Virus record (IMG/VR): IMGVR_UViG_3300046096_000189
Location: 1 to 64,000 of that record
From: a virus
Length of the DNA: 64,000 nucleotides
Direction: 5' to 3' (one strand)
The position numbers and the translations under genes are program-made. The notes below the pieces were generated by a model. The model ran no database searches. It had not been told where the DNA came from and worked only from the letters and a program-made list of their open reading frames with translations. This document shows, in pieces, positions 7,834 to 48,908 of this stretch; the first letter of the stretch is position 1, and every line of letters begins with the position of its first letter.

Positions 7834-8307
7834 TTACTTACCAAAGGCTTCTTGCGCCAATGAATTCAGCTCCTGACGGGCTTTCTTCAGCTCACCAGAG
7901 TTCTTACCACCGCGCACCTCGAAGGTGGTTGTGGCAACGCCGAACTTCGTGATCTTATTTGGCTCGCCTTCTTTTGCCAAAGAGTTAGTGTACTCCTTGG
8001 TACGGTCAAATGCCACTGTCATTTTGTTGACCCCCATGTCAAGCTCAACAGAGGTCTTTTCCAGACCTTTGCTTTTCTTCATGGCTTCGACAGACAACTT
8101 ACCAAAGGCATATGTGCCTGCGGCGACGTAGTCGGCATCATAGCCGTTGACCGTCTTCACGGTCTCCATGGTGATGCCTTCGGGCAAGTTGCTGCCATAG
8201 ACATCACCTTCACTGGTGCCGATGCCAGTCGCTTTATCCAGCTTGATGCTGGATTCGATTTGCGCAGCCAGTGTCAACACGCGTTCTTTGAGTTTGGATT
8301 CAGACAT
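7834..8307 (-). CDS. Small soluble protein of unknown function in an early-type cassette
   Basis: 157 residues, ATG at 8307 with AAGGAATAAAA upstream. It is rich in Lys, Glu, Ala and Gly, begins MSESKLKERVLTLAAQIESS, and has no membrane segment. Its DNA is noticeably more GC-rich than the flanking structural genes. It is preceded by a 200-nt leader starting at a promoter/leader repeat shared with cassettes near 44.9 and 48.9 kb. That context suggests an early, host-directed or infection-establishing protein, but no family is recognised. Confidence 0.8.
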   Translation of the reverse strand: MSESKLKERVLTLAAQIESSIKLDKATGIGTSEGDVYGSNLPEGITMETVKTVNGYDADYVAAGTYAFGKLSVEAMKKSKGLEKTSVELDMGVNKMTVAFDRTKEYTNSLAKEGEPNKITKFGVATTTFEVRGGKNSGELKKARQELNSLAQEAFGK

Positions 8308-8452
8308 TTTTATTCCTTAAATGGTTGGTAAAATACAACTTTTGCAAAAGTGACTGATATAGTCAAGTAAAGTTTAAGTAGCCGACTTACTCTACAAAGG
8401 CCATTTAAAACCAGTCATAGAGAATAGGGTTCGGAATAAAAAAAATAAACCC

Positions 8453-8522
8453 CAGCCGATAGCTAGATCAAAAGCAATCTATTAAACTACAGCTATGTAT
8501 CAACTAGAATATATGTGATTAA
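8453..8522 (-). promoter_or_regulatory. Early-type promoter and conserved leader, copy 1
   Basis: Read on the minus strand, a CACATATATTCTAGTTGA box is followed by a leader containing GTAGTTTAATAGATTGC and TTTTGATCTAGCTATC. The same leader recurs at 44.8 and 48.8 kb. The box resembles the AT-rich phiKZ early promoter (TATATTAC). It drives the 157-residue gene with a leader of about 200 nt. The rest of the gap 8308-8590 holds no gene that I can see. Confidence 0.6.
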
Positions 8523-8542
8523 AATTTTTTACATGCATAAAT

Positions 8543-12103: not shown

Positions 12104-13721
12104 CGTTATCTTCAGATAAGGGCGTTAGTCCTATCTCGCACCATAACGCGCAGCTCTAGCTTTCACTAGATGTCGAGACTATATCTTTACCGTACTTTAT
12201 AAATACGGTATCTTCCGTTTCGAACTCCACTCGGAGCCCTACAGGTTGGTAAAACCTTAGTCGTTGGCCACACTCCTATACGGAGCTTCGGTGCTGGGTT
12301 GTCCATTGTAATATCTCAACACTTTTTAAAACCATGACGCTTACCGTTTCCAGTTTCGCTTTGGTAGCTGAGCTTTAGGAGTTTCCCGCAATTAGGAAGA
12401 ATTCTACGTCGCTATTACTAGCAACTAGGACTATCAGTACTCATTTCCTTAAAAGTGAATTCATCATAAGACTTTCCTGTTTTTAATCTATCTGCTAAAG
12501 TTCTTTTATCTAAGCCAATGTCAATTGTCACTGATCTCTTACTTTTATATACTTTCACATCGCCAGTAGTCAGATTAGTAACTATTACCATTTTTGGTGG
12601 AGTGAATCTAGTTTCTCTGAAATTTTCAGGCCATTTGTCCTTTGACACTTTTCTGAACAAATAACCGCTATGCGATATCACATCAACTGATCGTAGTGCA
12701 GACTCTATGCGGTCCTGACTAACACCAGTCAATTCTGACAATTCTTTCACCGACTTAGCTTTAACAACTTTTTTGGAATCTAGTTCCAAAGCCTCTAATA
12801 GAACTTTATGATGCTTACGAGCGGTTTGGATGACAGCCTGGTTATATTGCCAGGTTCTCTTCCCAACGTCTTTTGTAAACATCAGCTCAAAACGATTCAG
12901 GAATAAATTTGCAACGATCTCATTACCATGTTTTCTATAAATGGGTTTAACTGACCGCATACCCAGATATTTGAAAGCTTTTTTAAGTGAATAATGCTCG
13001 CTTACACTGTCGGTTTCCCAGTCTTTTACAAGCACATTGACACTGTCTGTTTTCAAACCTGTAACCATGGCGTGGGTGTTATTTTCTTTTGATGTCACCC
13101 ATTCTAAATTTTTTAAATCGTCGTTCTGTTTGTTTCCGTCGATGTGGTTAACAAAGAATTTATTTGCGGGATCGCTGTTTCTTAAAAAGGCTCGCGCAAG
13201 AAGAATGTGGACACACACACCTCTCCATCTATTTTTATCAGGATCATATATTGATACTTCAGTATAACCATAAGAACTTCTTCGTCGATTCATTCTCTTG
13301 TATTTTAAAAGAGAAATTACATCTCCGGCTCTATTGATTATAAAACCAGGGAAACCTGGAATCAGTACATATCCATCTTTATAACAAATAGGGGTTCGTA
13401 TTTCCATCAGCCACTGACATCTTAGTTTAAGCACTTTTGATTTACATTCAGTAAATGTTATCTTTTCCAATTCAGGTAAAGTCAACATAACCTCATAATG
13501 AGCCAAAAGACTTAACCAATGTCTGTGATAGGTTCTGTATACATCACCTATCAAAACACTAATAACATTCTTCTCAACTTTCACAGACGGGGAATTTTCA
13601 TTTTCCTTGAACCAACATTCGTGATTCTGATTAAAAACATATCTTTTATCCACTAATAAAGGTTTTAGCATATATAGATCCTGAGTTATTATTCTCACTC
13701 TATATATGGAATACTGCTTTA
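12104..13721 (-). mobile_element. Group I intron D in RNAP beta, carrying an HNH homing endonuclease
   Basis: 1618 nt between beta exons 2 and 3. The 5' exon ends GGT GAT and the intron ends in G (AACG) before AAA ATT; splicing restores GDK. Core elements on the minus strand: P-like AATTGCGGGAAAC (12381-12393), R-like GGCCAACGACTA (12258-12269) and S-like AAGATATAGTCTC (12175-12187). R GACTA pairs with S TAGTC (P7). The endonuclease frame occupies the 5' part; the ribozyme core fills 12104-12417, which holds no other gene. Confidence 0.88.
12418..13671 (-). CDS. Intron-encoded HNH homing endonuclease with NUMOD-type modules
   Basis: The frame opens at a GTG (13698), but ATG 13671 has AGGA at 7 nt and is preferred, giving 417 residues. 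A NUMOD4-like segment (IPGFPGFIINRAGDVISL) precedes the HNH core FVNHIDGNKQNDDLKNLEWV followed by NNTHA. Conserved His and Asn residues of the beta-beta-alpha-metal fold are visible. The C-terminal part has helix-turn-helix-like DNA-binding repeats (KSVKELSELTGVSQDRIESA). The enzyme would cut intronless beta alleles near the insertion site and promote homing. The stop codon lies only a few bases before the intron core, so gene and ribozyme are tightly packed. Confidence 0.88.
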   Translation of the reverse strand: MLKPLLVDKRYVFNQNHECWFKENENSPSVKVEKNVISVLIGDVYRTYHRHWLSLLAHYEVMLTLPELEKITFTECKSKVLKLRCQWLMEIRTPICYKDGYVLIPGFPGFIINRAGDVISLLKYKRMNRRRSSYGYTEVSIYDPDKNRWRGVCVHILLARAFLRNSDPANKFFVNHIDGNKQNDDLKNLEWVTSKENNTHAMVTGLKTDSVNVLVKDWETDSVSEHYSLKKAFKYLGMRSVKPIYRKHGNEIVANLFLNRFELMFTKDVGKRTWQYNQAVIQTARKHHKVLLEALELDSKKVVKAKSVKELSELTGVSQDRIESALRSVDVISHSGYLFRKVSKDKWPENFRETRFTPPKMVIVTNLTTGDVKVYKSKRSVTIDIGLDKRTLADRLKTGKSYDEFTFKEMSTDSPSC

Positions 13722-14630: not shown

Positions 14631-15993
14631 CTTACTGTCCAATAAAGTCGCTCAGCTTCACAGCTTACCCTCTTTACCCGGTGTGCTCAGACACCCGCCT
14701 ATATTCTCATACAGGAACAGACTATATCTTCACCCTCTGTATACAGTAGGGCGCTCTCCGCTTCGAATACCGCTAGGTATCCTACAGGTTGATAAAACCT
14801 TAGTCGTTGAACTTTACACATGGTTGATCAGAATCAACTTTAGCGTCTTAGCTGCTGATTGTCTCTACCTACTAATTTTCAAACACGTTACGTATGTGTT
14901 TTCACACTCCGCTTTGGTTTAGTAGTCTAACAAGAGTTTCCAGCAATTCAAAGAGATTCTTTGAAAAGTTTCTTTTCCAAAGGACTTAACTGACTGTAAT
15001 ACACATACTTTCTACCGTCACGGTGAACCTTTGCTTCTTGGTTTAAACGCCAGTGTAAGGTAGTTATTTTAATACCATTATCGCTAGCGCAACTTGTGAC
15101 AGACTTATATATTTTTCTTTCGTCTGTCAGACAGTTCCAAACAGTTATGACTTTACACCCTGTGAAATTTTCATAACTTTCAATGAAATCTGTGTGTGTT
15201 ACCCAAGGTATCGAATTATCATTAGGTTTAAGCTGAATAAAATTATCTATAACCGGCTGATCTTTGTTGTAAAACAACTGAGAAACATAACCTGTGCTTA
15301 AGCCTAATTTTGACGATACTTCATTACAACTACTGTAGATAGTGATTCTTTCAATAGCTGGATATGTTCTCACCGCAACGCTTTTGTTCCTACCGTAAAG
15401 TTTTTTCGCTTCTTCTAAATCTTTTATTTCAACCCAAGGTGTTTTATCTTTCTTCAGTTTGAATTGTTGACCAGATGGCGATAATCTTTTACCTAGGTAT
15501 CTTAATCTGTATAAAACAGTATCCTTACTAACACCAAGATGTTTGGAACATTCAATGATGCTAGGGTATTCCGATATCAAACCACTTTTAACATCTCTTA
15601 CTAAAATAGGTAAACACTTTCTACTTAAGTTGTTAAGACCTGCGTGTTCAACGTTCTGTTTAGGTGTTACGATTTCAAGATTTTCAAGTGTGTTGTTGTG
15701 TTTATTACCGTCCTTATGGTTTACATACAACTCACCAAACTTTTCATAATCGCTGCAAATAAAACAAAACGCTATCAGTCTATGCAATCCCCAAGTTAAG
15801 GTTACGCCATTATCGGATGTTAATCTAATATTGGTGTAACCTGCTGGATTTATAGATCCTTTTAAAAACTTTTCTCTATGAAACGAAAAAACTTTTCCAT
15901 CTGGCGAGACTCTGTATTTAGAGTAACCTTTTGGAATCTTAAAATTAGGTGTATTACATTCAGTCATATACAGTTCCTCACTGTATATATTTA
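14631..15993 (-). mobile_element. Group I intron C in RNAP beta, carrying an HNH homing endonuclease
   Basis: 1363 nt. The 5' exon ends CAA GAT GAT, and the intron ends TTGGACAGTAAG before GGA AAA CGG, restoring DDGKRV. Core elements on the minus strand: P-like AATTGCTGGAAAC (14936-14948), R-like GTTCAACGACTA (14801-14812) and S-like AAGATATAGTCTG (14718-14730). Its 3' third is clearly similar to the two beta-prime introns (shared AGACACCGGG-type and CGACTTT-TGGAC segments). The endonuclease frame sits in the 5' part. The core region 14631-14947 holds no other gene. Confidence 0.9.
14948..15967 (-). CDS. Intron-encoded HNH homing endonuclease
   Basis: 339 residues, ATG at 15967 with GAGGA 7 nt upstream. 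A NUMOD4-like N-terminus (IPKGYSKYRVSPDGKVFSF) leads to the HNH core LYVNHKDGNKHNNTLENLEI with VEHAG after it. The C-terminal half contains repeated helix-turn-helix-like modules (IIECSKHLGVSKDTVLYRL; SCNEVSSKLGLSTGYVSQL; VTSCASDNGIKITTLHWRL) typical of DNA recognition by HNH homing enzymes. The termination codon TGA overlaps the start of the ribozyme core. It is related to, but clearly diverged from, the enzyme in intron D. Confidence 0.9.
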   Translation of the reverse strand: MTECNTPNFKIPKGYSKYRVSPDGKVFSFHREKFLKGSINPAGYTNIRLTSDNGVTLTWGLHRLIAFCFICSDYEKFGELYVNHKDGNKHNNTLENLEIVTPKQNVEHAGLNNLSRKCLPILVRDVKSGLISEYPSIIECSKHLGVSKDTVLYRLRYLGKRLSPSGQQFKLKKDKTPWVEIKDLEEAKKLYGRNKSVAVRTYPAIERITIYSSCNEVSSKLGLSTGYVSQLFYNKDQPVIDNFIQLKPNDNSIPWVTHTDFIESYENFTGCKVITVWNCLTDERKIYKSVTSCASDNGIKITTLHWRLNQEAKVHRDGRKYVYYSQLSPLEKKLFKESL

Positions 15994-19331: not shown

Positions 19332-19670
19332 CTTATTGTCCAGTAAAGTCGCTCGGTTATATAAACCTACTCTCTTTACCCGGTGTGCTAAGACACCCGC
19401 CTGTACTTTCATACAGGAACAGACCATATCACCATCTTCAGCTTTATCTGGTAAGATGCTTCCCACTTCGGATCTGCTAGATCCTACTCCCTTACGGGAT
19501 GGTCGTTGAACGTTCACCTATACGGTGCTTCGCTGCTGATAACCCAATCCTAATCTTTTCAAACCGTGGCTTTGGCTTTCGCCTCGCGGTGGTGATTAGG
19601 CTCTAAGGGTGTTCCAGCAATTCAAGAAGTTTTCATTACAGAATTTCTTCTATATGCGACAATGTTACTT
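19332..19670 (-). ncRNA. Group I intron B in RNAP beta-prime (no ORF)
   Basis: 339 nt, no endonuclease. The 5' exon is TTC GAT and the intron ends CTGGACAATAAG before GGT GAT. Core on the minus strand: P-like GTTCCAGCAATT complement (19611-19622), R-like GTTCAACGACCA (19500-19511), S-like GATATGGTCTG (19420-19430). R GACCA pairs with S TGGTC, a compensated change relative to the other introns. A candidate guide GTCG near the 5' end can pair with exon CGAT, ending in the required U-G pair. Confidence 0.9.
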
Positions 19671-19676
19671 ATCGAA
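19671..19676 (-). CDS. RNAP beta-prime microexon 2 (6 nt, Phe-Asp of DFDGD)
   Basis: The six bases TTCGAT between introns A and B encode Phe-Asp. The two introns end in aligned 12-nt sequences (CTGGACAATAGG and CTGGACAATAAG), which fixes both boundaries. Joining ...GGT GCT GAT + TTC GAT + GGT GAT ACG gives GADFDGDTMS, the universal catalytic motif of multisubunit RNA polymerases, in frame. No other junction choice within a few bases keeps both the frame and the motif. Confidence 0.88.
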
Positions 19677-20087
19677 CCTATTGTCCAGTTACAGTCGTTC
19701 GGTTTCAAACCTATCATAAAGTAACCCGGTGTGCTTAGACACCCGCCTTTGGCTTTCCCAAAGGAGCAGACTATATCTTCACCCTCTGTTTATACAGTAG
19801 GGTGTTTCCCACTTCGGAGATACTATCTCCTACACCTTGCTTAAGGGTTAGTCGTTGAACTTTACGCATGGTTGGCTATAAAGTCAACTTTAGCGTCTTA
19901 GCTGCTGATTACCCATTGTTACATTTAATCCGTTTTCAAACCTTGGCTTTGATTTTCATCTAGCGGTGGTGGATTAACTTTAGGGTGTTCCAGCAATTCA
20001 AGAAAAATCTCTTTAAATATTACTATTTAAGAGGACAATCGGATATAAAATATGAATACTTTTAACTCACTTTTTATATCCTTTTTT
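19677..20087 (-). ncRNA. Group I intron A in RNAP beta-prime (no ORF)
   Basis: 411 nt, no endonuclease. It begins after GCT GAT and ends CTGGACAATAGG. Core on the minus strand: P-like element (complement of 19987-19998), R-like GTTCAACGACTA (19849-19860), S-like AAGATATAGTCTG (19767-19779). Its 3' half is closely similar to intron B, only 6 nt away in the mature message. A long hairpin (GGATATAAAA / TTTTATATCC) lies near its 5' end. Confidence 0.9.
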
Positions 20088-31063: not shown

Positions 31064-31097
31064 TAACACCCCCGGCCTGTTATGGCTAGGGGTGTTA
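31064..31097. terminator. Bidirectional terminator, cassette type, copy 1
   Basis: TAACACCCCCGGCCTG / GGCTAGGGGTGTTA stem with A-run on one side and T-rich sequence on the other. A near-identical hairpin occurs at 44231 and 48564, always where a plus-strand structural operon meets a minus-strand small-gene cassette. Confidence 0.88.
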
Positions 31098-31103
31098 TTT
31101 ATA

Positions 31104-31400
31104 TTAAACCAAGTGCATGCGCACTTGGCTTTCATGTACCTCGGGGAATCCGAGGCTGTCAAGAGATTGTCGAATTGACCAGCCCTGACCAACGCGCCTG
31201 GCGTTGGTGCAGTAGAGATCGGCTGCGACATCGTCGCAGCCGTCGGCTTTGACGGCTTTACCGAGTAACCCAGTGGTCTTGTCGACCACCAAGTATAGTT
31301 TCCCGATCCAGCCGTCTTTGACGGCGAGAGTTTGAACATTTGCGGCGGGTGCATAATTGCGCTCGCCTTCGTTGCCAAACTGGCAGGTAACTGCGTTCAT
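31104..31400 (-). CDS. Small protein of unknown function in an early-type cassette
   Basis: 98 residues; ATG at 31400 with AAGGAGATACTC upstream (the frame opens further, to 31460, but this start has the strong ribosome site). It begins MNAVTCQFGNEGERNYAPAA and is GC-richer than both neighbours. It contains three Cys. It sits alone between a conserved cassette terminator and an early-type promoter. No family is recognised; host takeover is an inference from context. Confidence 0.75.
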   Translation of the reverse strand: MNAVTCQFGNEGERNYAPAANVQTLAVKDGWIGKLYLVVDKTTGLLGKAVKADGCDDVAADLYCTNARRVGQGWSIRQSLDSLGFPEVHESQVRMHLV

Positions 31401-31433
31401 GAGTATCTCCTTAACCATGAGTTCGAAAGATGT

Positions 31434-31488
31434 TTCGATTAAACCACAGCGATAGCTCAAATAGAATATATGTGACTGAAAAAGTTTA
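31434..31488 (-). promoter_or_regulatory. Early-type promoter, copy 2 (shortened leader)
   Basis: On the minus strand TCACATATATTCTATTTGAG matches the box of copy 1, followed by a shortened version of the leader (GCTGTGGTTTAAT). It lies about 55-90 nt upstream of the 98-residue gene. Confidence 0.6.
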
Positions 31489-31524
31489 CACAGGGGAAAC
31501 CCTGTGTAAACTTATAATCAGCTT

Positions 31525-44215: not shown

Positions 44216-44230
44216 AAAAGCAAAAAAAAA

Positions 44231-44266
44231 AATCATCCCCGGCCTGTGAAGGCTAGGGGGATGATT
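44231..44266. terminator. Bidirectional terminator, cassette type, copy 2
   Basis: AATCATCCCCGGCCTG / GGCTAGGGGGATGATT stem with A-run and T-run either side; near-identical to the terminators at 31064 and 48564. Confidence 0.88.
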
Positions 44267-44267
44267 T

Positions 44268-44591
44268 TTACTTTCCAGCAGGACAATGACCTGTAAAGTC
44301 CAGTTCATAACCTTTGCCGGGGGTAATATTCACTGTTGGATATCTCCATCCAACAGCGCGACCATAGTGGTCGCGAAAGAAGACATGTGCCCCCAGCTGT
44401 CGCTGGGTGTTGTATCGGGTCCACTCCGACCTGTCGATCAGGTAGACGTCGGCCGTCCCGCCATCGGGGAGTGATAAGCTACACTCCCCGCTACCGTCGT
44501 CAACCCCACCCCAATCTTCGCCGTCGTCCCACTCCTCGGCAAATGACGAGAAGAATGGAACTGTAATTTTTATGTTAGAATTTGCGTACAT
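44268..44591 (-). CDS. Small acidic protein in an early-type cassette
   Basis: 107 residues, AGGAGATAGTC before the ATG. Very acidic tract EEWDDGEDWGGVDDGSG near residues 19-35; beta-rich remainder with many Tyr, Arg and Gly. Its codon use is GC-rich compared with adjacent structural genes. The acidic patch could mimic DNA, as in small phage anti-restriction proteins, but no homology is visible. Confidence 0.72.
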   Translation of the reverse strand: MYANSNIKITVPFFSSFAEEWDDGEDWGGVDDGSGECSLSLPDGGTADVYLIDRSEWTRYNTQRQLGAHVFFRDHYGRAVGWRYPTVNITPGKGYELDFTGHCPAGK

Positions 44592-44727
44592 GACTATCTC
44601 CTGTTAACCTGTATTCACGATATGCGAACTTGAACAGGCTAATAATCCCTTTTTGCTGGCCAAGCGTCAGGGCAGGTTTTGGCCCAACTATTTATTTAAA
44701 GAGGTTAGTTGTCAACCTCTTGGGAAG

Positions 44728-44814
44728 TCAGCGACGTGTCGTCACTGCTTCCCAAATGATGAAAGGCGTTGTGATCGCCGCAAAGGCGATCACTGCAATG
44801 TCAATCATATCCAT
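44728..44814 (-). CDS. 28-residue membrane peptide in an early-type cassette
   Basis: MDMIDIAVIAFAAITTPFII then WEAVTTRR. The ATG at 44814 has GAGGAG about 5 nt upstream. One membrane segment with a basic C-terminal tail (TTRR). It is the first gene after the promoter/leader repeat at 44813-44904. A frame this short is only supported by the ribosome site and context. The gap 44592-44727 holds nothing else that I see. Confidence 0.55.
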   Translation of the reverse strand: MDMIDIAVIAFAAITTPFIIWEAVTTRR

Positions 44815-44904
44815 AATGTACTCCTCAGCTGATAGCTAGATCAAAAACAATCTATTAAACTACAGCTATACATCAAGTTAAGTATATATGACTGAAATCT
44901 TTTA
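44813..44904 (-). promoter_or_regulatory. Early-type promoter and conserved leader, copy 3
   Basis: On the minus strand the box TCATATATACTTAACTTGAT is followed by the leader with GTAGTTTAATAGATTGT, TTTTGATCTAGCTATC and the GAGGAG ribosome site. Almost identical over about 90 nt to 48801-48892, differing at only a handful of positions, and partly to 8453-8522. Confidence 0.7.
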
Positions 44905-44909
44905 CAAGG

Positions 44910-45083
44910 TCAAGAAAGCACTCTAGCTTCTCTCACAGAAGATATCATCCTATACCCACCCATGCGCAAAGGTTTGGTAGGTTCTGTATAGATCTCCAGA
45001 ACTTTATCTTCCTTCTTGGCCTGCTCGATAAGCTCACTCACCACTTTTTCAAACTCTTCACGGGTCTTGATATTTTCAAACAT
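44910..45083 (-). CDS. Small hypothetical protein
   Basis: 57 residues (MFENIKTREEFEKVVSELIE at the start), ATG 45083 preceded by GGAAAG. Charged helical first half, basic second half. It begins 11 nt after the Rad50-like gene ends and is probably co-transcribed with it. Function unknown. Confidence 0.7.
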   Translation of the reverse strand: MFENIKTREEFEKVVSELIEQAKKEDKVLEIYTEPTKPLRMGGYRMISSVREARVLS

Positions 45084-48563: not shown

Positions 48564-48599
48564 ATAACACCCCCGGCCTGTGAGGGCTAGGGGTGTTAT
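48564..48599. terminator. Bidirectional terminator, cassette type, copy 3
   Basis: ATAACACCCCCGGCCTG / GGCTAGGGGTGTTAT stem with poly-A upstream; same design as copies at 31064 and 44231. Confidence 0.88.
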
Positions 48600-48601
48600 T
48601 C

Positions 48602-48802
48602 TCACGAAAACGCCAGATAGGGTTTTCGTGAAAAGACCCGGACCCCGTCCTCGCGGACGAAACTCCAGGTTTTCCTAACCATACACTTTTTGTACCGGGT
48701 TTCCCCGGTTTTAATGCTTTTGCTCATCCGCGCAGCTGCGCGGAGAGCGTACCCCGCAGCATAAAATGCTGCGGTGGTTTCACGACGGGTCATGTGTTCC
48801 AT
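48602..48802 (-). CDS. Small basic protein in an early-type cassette
   Basis: 66 residues, GAGGAGTGTATT before the ATG. Strongly basic and Ala/Arg-rich (MTRRETTAAFYAAGYALRAA), GC-rich codon use. It directly follows the promoter/leader repeat at 48801-48892 and is closed by the cassette terminator. May bind nucleic acid; function unknown. Confidence 0.72.
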   Translation of the reverse strand: MEHMTRRETTAAFYAAGYALRAAARMSKSIKTGETRYKKCMVRKTWSFVREDGVRVFSRKPYLAFS

Positions 48803-48892
48803 AATACACTCCTCAGCTGATAGCTAGATCAAAAGCAATCTATTAAACTACAGCTATGTATCAAGTTAAGTATATGTGATTGAAATCTTTTA
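48801..48892 (-). promoter_or_regulatory. Early-type promoter and conserved leader, copy 4
   Basis: Box TCACATATACTTAACTTGAT on the minus strand, followed by the same leader as copy 3, ending in the ribosome site of the 66-residue gene. Confidence 0.7.
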
Positions 48893-48908
48893 TAAGCCGA
48901 ATAAAAAA

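Follow-up and report, generated by a model that had tools for sequence, protein, structure and literature searches.

Three small groups of genes interrupt the window (the 64-kb stretch of virus DNA analysed here), and the one at positions 44216-44904 raises the question of whether they form a family of exchangeable units and, if so, what such units may do for the virus. The preliminary description had proposed a modular, moron-like family whose conserved ends let new small genes be swapped in, with contents that were candidates for host takeover or anti-defence. We compared the window and the rest of its contig with those of related phages, and we analysed the ends, the products and the coding sequences of the gene groups, hereafter cassettes.

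The phage and the shared ends of its cassettes

A 163,977-base (~164-kb) IMG/VR contig (G000) begins with the window, and a second contig (G009) is identical to G000 over 28.8 kb and runs beyond its end. G000 encodes a multisubunit RNA polymerase, phiKZ-type structural proteins with ~30-35% identity to their counterparts in named phages, and a homologue of chimallin, the phiKZ nuclear shell protein (a 643-codon frame, G000 156073-157227, minus strand, E 1.7e-23). These three features together point to a phiKZ-like jumbo phage, which probably forms a nucleus because a chimallin homologue is encoded. No named phage shows a DNA-level match to G000 in the 40-52 kb stretch that was tested. A collinear relative, G002, served for the main exchange comparison, G003 and G008 for cassette content, and G006, G007 and phiKZ as hairpin controls. 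For replication we used G010, which was found through the AcrIII-1 search described below; it is a distantly related jumbo phage of 230,692 bases and encodes a multisubunit RNA polymerase of its own. Four group I introns lie around the RNA polymerase genes of the window (12154-12448, 14698-15008, 19400-19680 and 19747-20065, minus); the polymerase reading frames are split, in-frame stops are present, and the intron content is unlike that of G002.

As had been described, the loci at 31.06-31.50, 44.23-44.91 and 48.56-48.90 kb follow one minus-strand plan, in which a leader and a promoter accompany one or two small GC-rich genes and a terminator. The cassettes occupy gaps adjoining structural genes and an SbcC-like gene, and the GC content of their small genes is 0.49-0.55 versus a genome mean near 0.40. 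At least five further cassettes are present on G000 outside the window, at 66.2, 72.0, 80.9, 87.7 and 160.1 kb. With a 33-nt promoter profile, the three window loci reach 42-47 bits and further sites are found in the contig, while shuffled genomes give 0-1 matches above 12 bits, so that the motif is far beyond chance. The motif lies at 31457-31495 (TTTCAGTCACATATATTCTATTTGA, 46.8 bits), 44873-44911 (41.7 bits) and 48861-48899 (42.6 bits). At the other end of the cassettes are near-identical hairpins (TAACACCCCYAGCC...GGCCGGGGGTGTTA followed by a T-run, minus strand) at 31.07, 44.24 and 48.57 kb (31064-31098, 44231-44267 and 48564-48601), which recur at 72.0, 87.7 and 160.1 kb of G000, and a variant (CCCAGCC/GGCCAGGG) is found at 66.2, 80.9 and 126.5 kb. 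The motif profile, and the hairpins with their T-runs, suggest that the two ends act as promoter and terminator, respectively. A ribosome site like AAGGAGATA or GAGGAGTA is present at each small gene of the three loci (98 codons at 31 kb, 28 and 107 codons at 44 kb, and 66 codons at 48 kb).

Between promoter and start codon lies a leader (31401-31456, 44815-44872 and 48803-48860, minus strand), which folds into a two-helix RNA. Over 99 nt, the 44.8- and 48.8-kb leaders share 92% identity, in agreement with their earlier description as almost identical. We aligned 19 leaders of three phages (G000, G002 and G003) from the promoter to the start codon. Their shared fold begins with an outer helix, continues through a conserved UUUAA segment into an inner hairpin, and has AAGGAGATA and the start codon downstream. 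In this alignment 93.9% of the cells pair, compared with 73.6% in shuffled and 26-44% in slid controls. Compensatory changes are found in 10 of the 13 pairs and the covariation score is 0.714 versus 0.309, although these counts are not independent events because many of the leaders are copies within a single genome. A search against Rfam gave nothing credible for the leader, and the group I introns alone were above the threshold.

Exchange of cassette content

The alignment of G000 with G002 breaks at 31,072-31,397, 44,269-44,597 and 48,600-48,809, whereas the flanks near these sites are 84-95% identical. The genes that replace those of G000 are unrelated to them (70 codons in the 31-kb slot, 101 codons in the 44-kb slot and 208 codons in the 48-kb slot), and the terminator and leader are kept, as was expected of a family with differing content and persistent ends. 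The preliminary description had set against its own proposal the case of the same small genes standing at the same positions in all relatives. That is not what the 31-, 44- and 48-kb sites hold, but it is the arrangement that G000 and G002 share for the 28-residue peptide of the 44-kb cassette and for three cassettes outside the window, those at 66, 81 and 88 kb, which have orthologues in both phages.

Content is also lost and moved. The 72-kb slot is emptied in G000, with only ATG GCT GGA GCG TGA between leader and terminator, and in G002 it is filled with a 112-codon AcrIII-1 homologue, which is an extra copy of the gene that occupies the 88-kb slot in both phages. The 98-codon gene of the 31-kb slot has homologues in two other phages: G008 carries one in its own 31-kb slot, and G003 carries one in its 44-kb slot (39% identity). 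An M48-type gene occupies the 81-kb slot of both G000 and G002, but the 126.5-kb position of G008. At 135.3 kb, a site without cassettes in G000, G008 has 2.1 kb of them. HRxDGPA-type repeat proteins in several copies fill cassettes of G008 (97185-97932, L093) and the 31-kb slot of G003 (L028/L029).

A further leader near 8.45 kb had been assigned to the 157-residue gene at 8.3 kb, and this assignment does not hold. The leader joins the 3' half of a terminator (GGCTGGGGTTTATTTTTTTT) directly, and at the same site G002 has a complete terminator behind 1.6 kb of extra genes; the site is therefore an emptied cassette (8437-8538, minus strand) with its promoter at 8500-8538, a truncated leader at 8458-8499 and the terminator 3' half at 8437-8457. 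The 157-codon gene (7834-8307, minus strand, PHROG 9746) lies downstream of it, and we judged it to be outside the cassette family.

The exchanges with G002, the emptied slots and the homologues in different slots all support a moron-like family with conserved ends and swappable genes, and we regard it as firmly established that cassette content undergoes modular exchange. The route would be homologous recombination through the shared leader and terminator. Like known phage morons, which are small genes between core operons with their own promoter and terminator, different GC content and variable occurrence in relatives (PMC2147016, PMC7067206), the cassettes have their own promoter and terminator, their content varies between relatives with conserved flanks, and their composition is unlike that of the core (GC 0.50 versus 0.40). 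They follow the moron plan, yet they are a distinct variant of it, because the near-identical ends are present in many copies, content is shuffled between slots, the leader RNA covaries and the coding sequences are dense in hairpins.

Cassette products

The 31-kb cassette of the window contains the 98-codon gene (31104-31400, minus strand), and the 48-kb cassette contains the 66-codon gene (48602-48802, minus strand). The 44-kb cassette holds two separate genes, for a 28-codon hydrophobic peptide (44728-44814, minus strand), kept in G002 with 30 codons, and for a 107-residue protein (44268-44591, minus strand). The intergenic element between them (44592-44727, minus strand) has a conserved core, TGGCCAGCAAAAAGGGAT (44642-44688), which is also found between both genes of two-gene cassettes in G002 and G008 (L071). 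This element possibly forms a pseudoknot, and Rfam gave nothing credible for it. The 66-, 98- and 107-residue proteins have no matches in PHROG, Pfam or PADLOC, and relatives of the 107- and 66-codon frames were not found. An AlphaFold model of the 98-residue protein is confident (pLDDT 84), and a fold search with it gave no match below E 0.1; the model of the 107-residue protein alone was unusable (pLDDT 45) and was discarded. All four products of the window match no known family and are without recognised relatives outside these phages.

Two products encoded outside the window were recognised. The protein of the 88-kb cassette (G000 87717-88115) is an AcrIII-1-type ring nuclease of the DUF1874/STIV B116-like family, with a match to Pfam PF08960 (E 9.7e-8, 32.5 bits, cut-off 26) and 44% identity to the DUF1874 protein of Thermoanaerobacterium phage THSA-485A. 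When aligned with AFV3-109 (PDB 2j6b), it keeps the GH..TA and RLPEG motifs, and its H45 (in VGHADTA) and R84 (in GPRLPEGA) align with these motifs of 2j6b, to which, rather than to SIRV1 gp29, the alignment refers. In SIRV1 gp29 the active-site histidine is H47, and the H47A variant has no activity (PMC7213978). The AcrIII-1 family degrades cyclic tetra-adenylate (cA4; PMC7854544), and the 88-kb protein is predicted to destroy this signal of type III CRISPR systems. Its likeness to the known AcrIII-1 viral ring nucleases (DUF1874, PF08960; PMC7213978, PMC7854544) thus lies in the family match and the two motifs. Unlike them, it is encoded by a jumbo phage in a hairpin-dense gene, and G002 has the gene twice, in two different slots; its activity is a predicted one. 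Nucleus-forming phages resist DNA-targeting immunity, whereas RNA-targeting type III and Cas13 systems are effective against them (PMC12908238, PMC13282480, PMC7854544); because RNA-targeting immunity reaches such phages, an AcrIII-1 gene fits its phage.

The second recognised product, an M48-type metalloprotease, is encoded by the 81-kb cassette (G000 80942-81583, minus strand) and has a weak match to the CBASS-associated CapP. Since the ring nuclease and the metalloprotease are the only products recognised by sequence searches, most cassette products are unstudied. The proposed anti-defence content is therefore borne out for the family, which includes an AcrIII-1-type ring nuclease, and not for the window's own genes, which are without recognised relatives. 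On balance, we consider it more likely than not that counter-defence is the main theme of the cassettes.

Hairpin-dense messages and their possible role

Beyond what the preliminary description had noted, the leader RNA covaries, as shown above, and the coding sequences are dense in hairpins. In most cassette genes, perfect stems of 6-14 base pairs, whose loops mostly measure 3-6 nt, recur at intervals of about 80 nt (81 stems in 6,486 nt). When 297 genes of three contigs were ranked by stem content, from automatic gene calls in which the 31-kb gene was in the wrong frame, the top of the ranking was almost wholly cassette genes, with the 66-codon gene first (159 stem base pairs per kb). Compared with synonymous-codon shuffles, for which the right frame was used, cassette genes have a median z of 4.8 and the other 236 genes 0.84 (p 6e-9). 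The 98-codon gene has six perfect stem-loops (z 6.7), and the 107-codon gene has four (z 5.1). Hairpin-poor cassette genes are also found (at 57 kb and 36 kb of G002, and in G003), which indicates that hairpins are not obligatory.

Could the hairpins simply reflect the composition of ordinary morons, that is, of foreign, higher-GC host-takeover genes exchanged via repeated ends? Variable content, an own promoter and terminator, and a GC content near 0.50 versus 0.40 for the remaining genes would all be expected of such genes. However, synonymous-codon shuffles keep both composition and protein, and in most cassette genes the hairpin content lies 4-10 SD above theirs. In addition, the GC content outside the stems is still 0.48 (0.59 in stems), and the GC-rich distant phage G006 (0.51) is without hairpin excess, so we consider this explanation improbable.

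Two observations suggest that the structure of the mRNA is selected. Between orthologues, 17% of the synonymous third positions are changed in stems versus 33% outside (p 7e-4). Among stem mismatches in a non-redundant set, 23 are G-U and 6 are A-C, compared with 8.3 and 5.9 in shuffles (p 0.016), a modest G-U excess that has a p of 0.14 under a stricter rule; G-U over A-C would be expected of selection acting on the mRNA strand. Folding energy in cassette genes is also lower than in shuffles (mean z -5.3), and as a test of the strand it was uninformative (mean z -5.31 sense versus -5.19 antisense). Covariation of stems among AcrIII-1 paralogues was rejected as support, since pairs changed on both sides were kept in 23 cases and broken in 18 and the stems mostly turn over. 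RNA-level selection therefore rests on the synonymous conservation and the G-U excess.

The pattern is repeated in G010, where five hairpin-dense genes (154207, 162321, 183256 and 219407 on the plus strand and 78282 on the minus strand; z 3.7-8.3), including an AcrIII-1 gene, stand behind one AT-rich promoter of their own and most of them share a long leader. Hairpin-dense genes are essentially absent from phiKZ, G006 and G007, and in ~200 kb of phiKZ no gene exceeds both 80 stem base pairs per kb and a z of 4, which shows that such genes are not universal in jumbo phages. The AcrIII-1 genes of several GC-rich contigs gave mixed, often moderate hairpin excess, so that the signal may in part be common to such genes generally. 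We found nothing relevant on hairpin-dense phage coding sequences in the literature, of which our coverage was incomplete.

The same data bear on a mutational origin, in which the hairpins would be a by-product of template switching or quasipalindrome correction in fast-evolving accessory genes and would have no RNA function. The turnover of stems between paralogues, the predominance of perfect Watson-Crick stems (81 in 6.5 kb) and the equal folding excess on both strands fit such an origin. It is at odds with the conservation of orthologue stems at synonymous third positions, with an excess of G-U and not of A-C mismatches, with the concentration of hairpins in cassette genes rather than genome-wide, and with the recurrence of the pattern behind one promoter in a distantly related phage. 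We therefore regard a mutational by-product as unlikely, and consider it likely that the structure of the cassette mRNAs is under selection.

A different possibility is that some cassettes are structured non-coding RNAs, such as decoys or sponges, with short frames that are merely incidental. Frames such as those of 66 and 107 codons, strongly structured and without relatives, would suit this possibility, but AcrIII-1, M48 and the 98-codon family show protein-level conservation from one cassette to another, and the frames have ribosome sites and begin directly after the leader, all of which makes it very improbable. Least credible of all is that the hairpins act in DNA, as folded single-strand sites for capture and excision like integron attC sites, which are folded single-strand DNA: this would explain why genes move between slots, but the stems are spread through the gene rather than placed at its ends, their sequences are not the same in different genes, exchange is bounded by the shared leader and terminator, which fit ordinary homologous recombination, and the G-U excess favours RNA. 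No integrase, other recombinase or attC-like site was noticed in passing. Integron gene cassettes are likewise exchangeable genes between conserved ends, whereas the cassettes described here are dispersed and each has its own promoter and terminator.

Our preferred reading, held with moderate confidence, is that the cassettes are early counter-defence morons open to exchange and that selection acts on the structure of their mRNAs, perhaps because it serves as ribonuclease armour. They would be dispersed single-operon accessory units in gaps between the core operons of a phiKZ-like phage, each made of a promoter, a folded leader RNA with a ribosome site, one or two small genes and a terminator. 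Their conserved ends are repeated many times in each genome, and the genes between them are exchanged, lost or moved to other slots. The type of promoter makes early expression quite probable, and it is probably the virion RNA polymerase that would read the cassette promoter at the start of infection. In phiKZ-like phages, which have multisubunit RNA polymerases, an AT-rich conserved motif is similarly found upstream of presumed early genes (PMC7598289), but in the present cassettes a conserved folded leader and an exchangeable gene come after it.

The remaining products, like those recognised, are probably counter-defence or host-takeover proteins. Type III CRISPR attacks the exported mRNAs of nucleus-forming phages, and the AcrIII-1 member would remove its cA4 signal. 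The likeliest role of the folded leader and coding stems would be to shield the messages from single-strand RNases and from RNA-guided attack, which would allow the protective proteins to be produced; we propose only tentatively that such armour is the purpose of the stems. More speculative still is the extension to jumbo phages at large, in which exchangeable counter-defence genes would be shielded at the RNA level by stem-loop messages that survive type III CRISPR, Cas13 and RNase toxins, in at least two distant lineages that both have a hairpin-dense AcrIII-1 gene.

The conserved ends provide a search key to small anti-defence candidates that are invisible to homology search, and these candidates come from phages that resist DNA-targeting immunity. 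The hairpin-dense genes further raise the question of whether phages evolve mRNA that is resistant to RNA-guided or ribonuclease defence.
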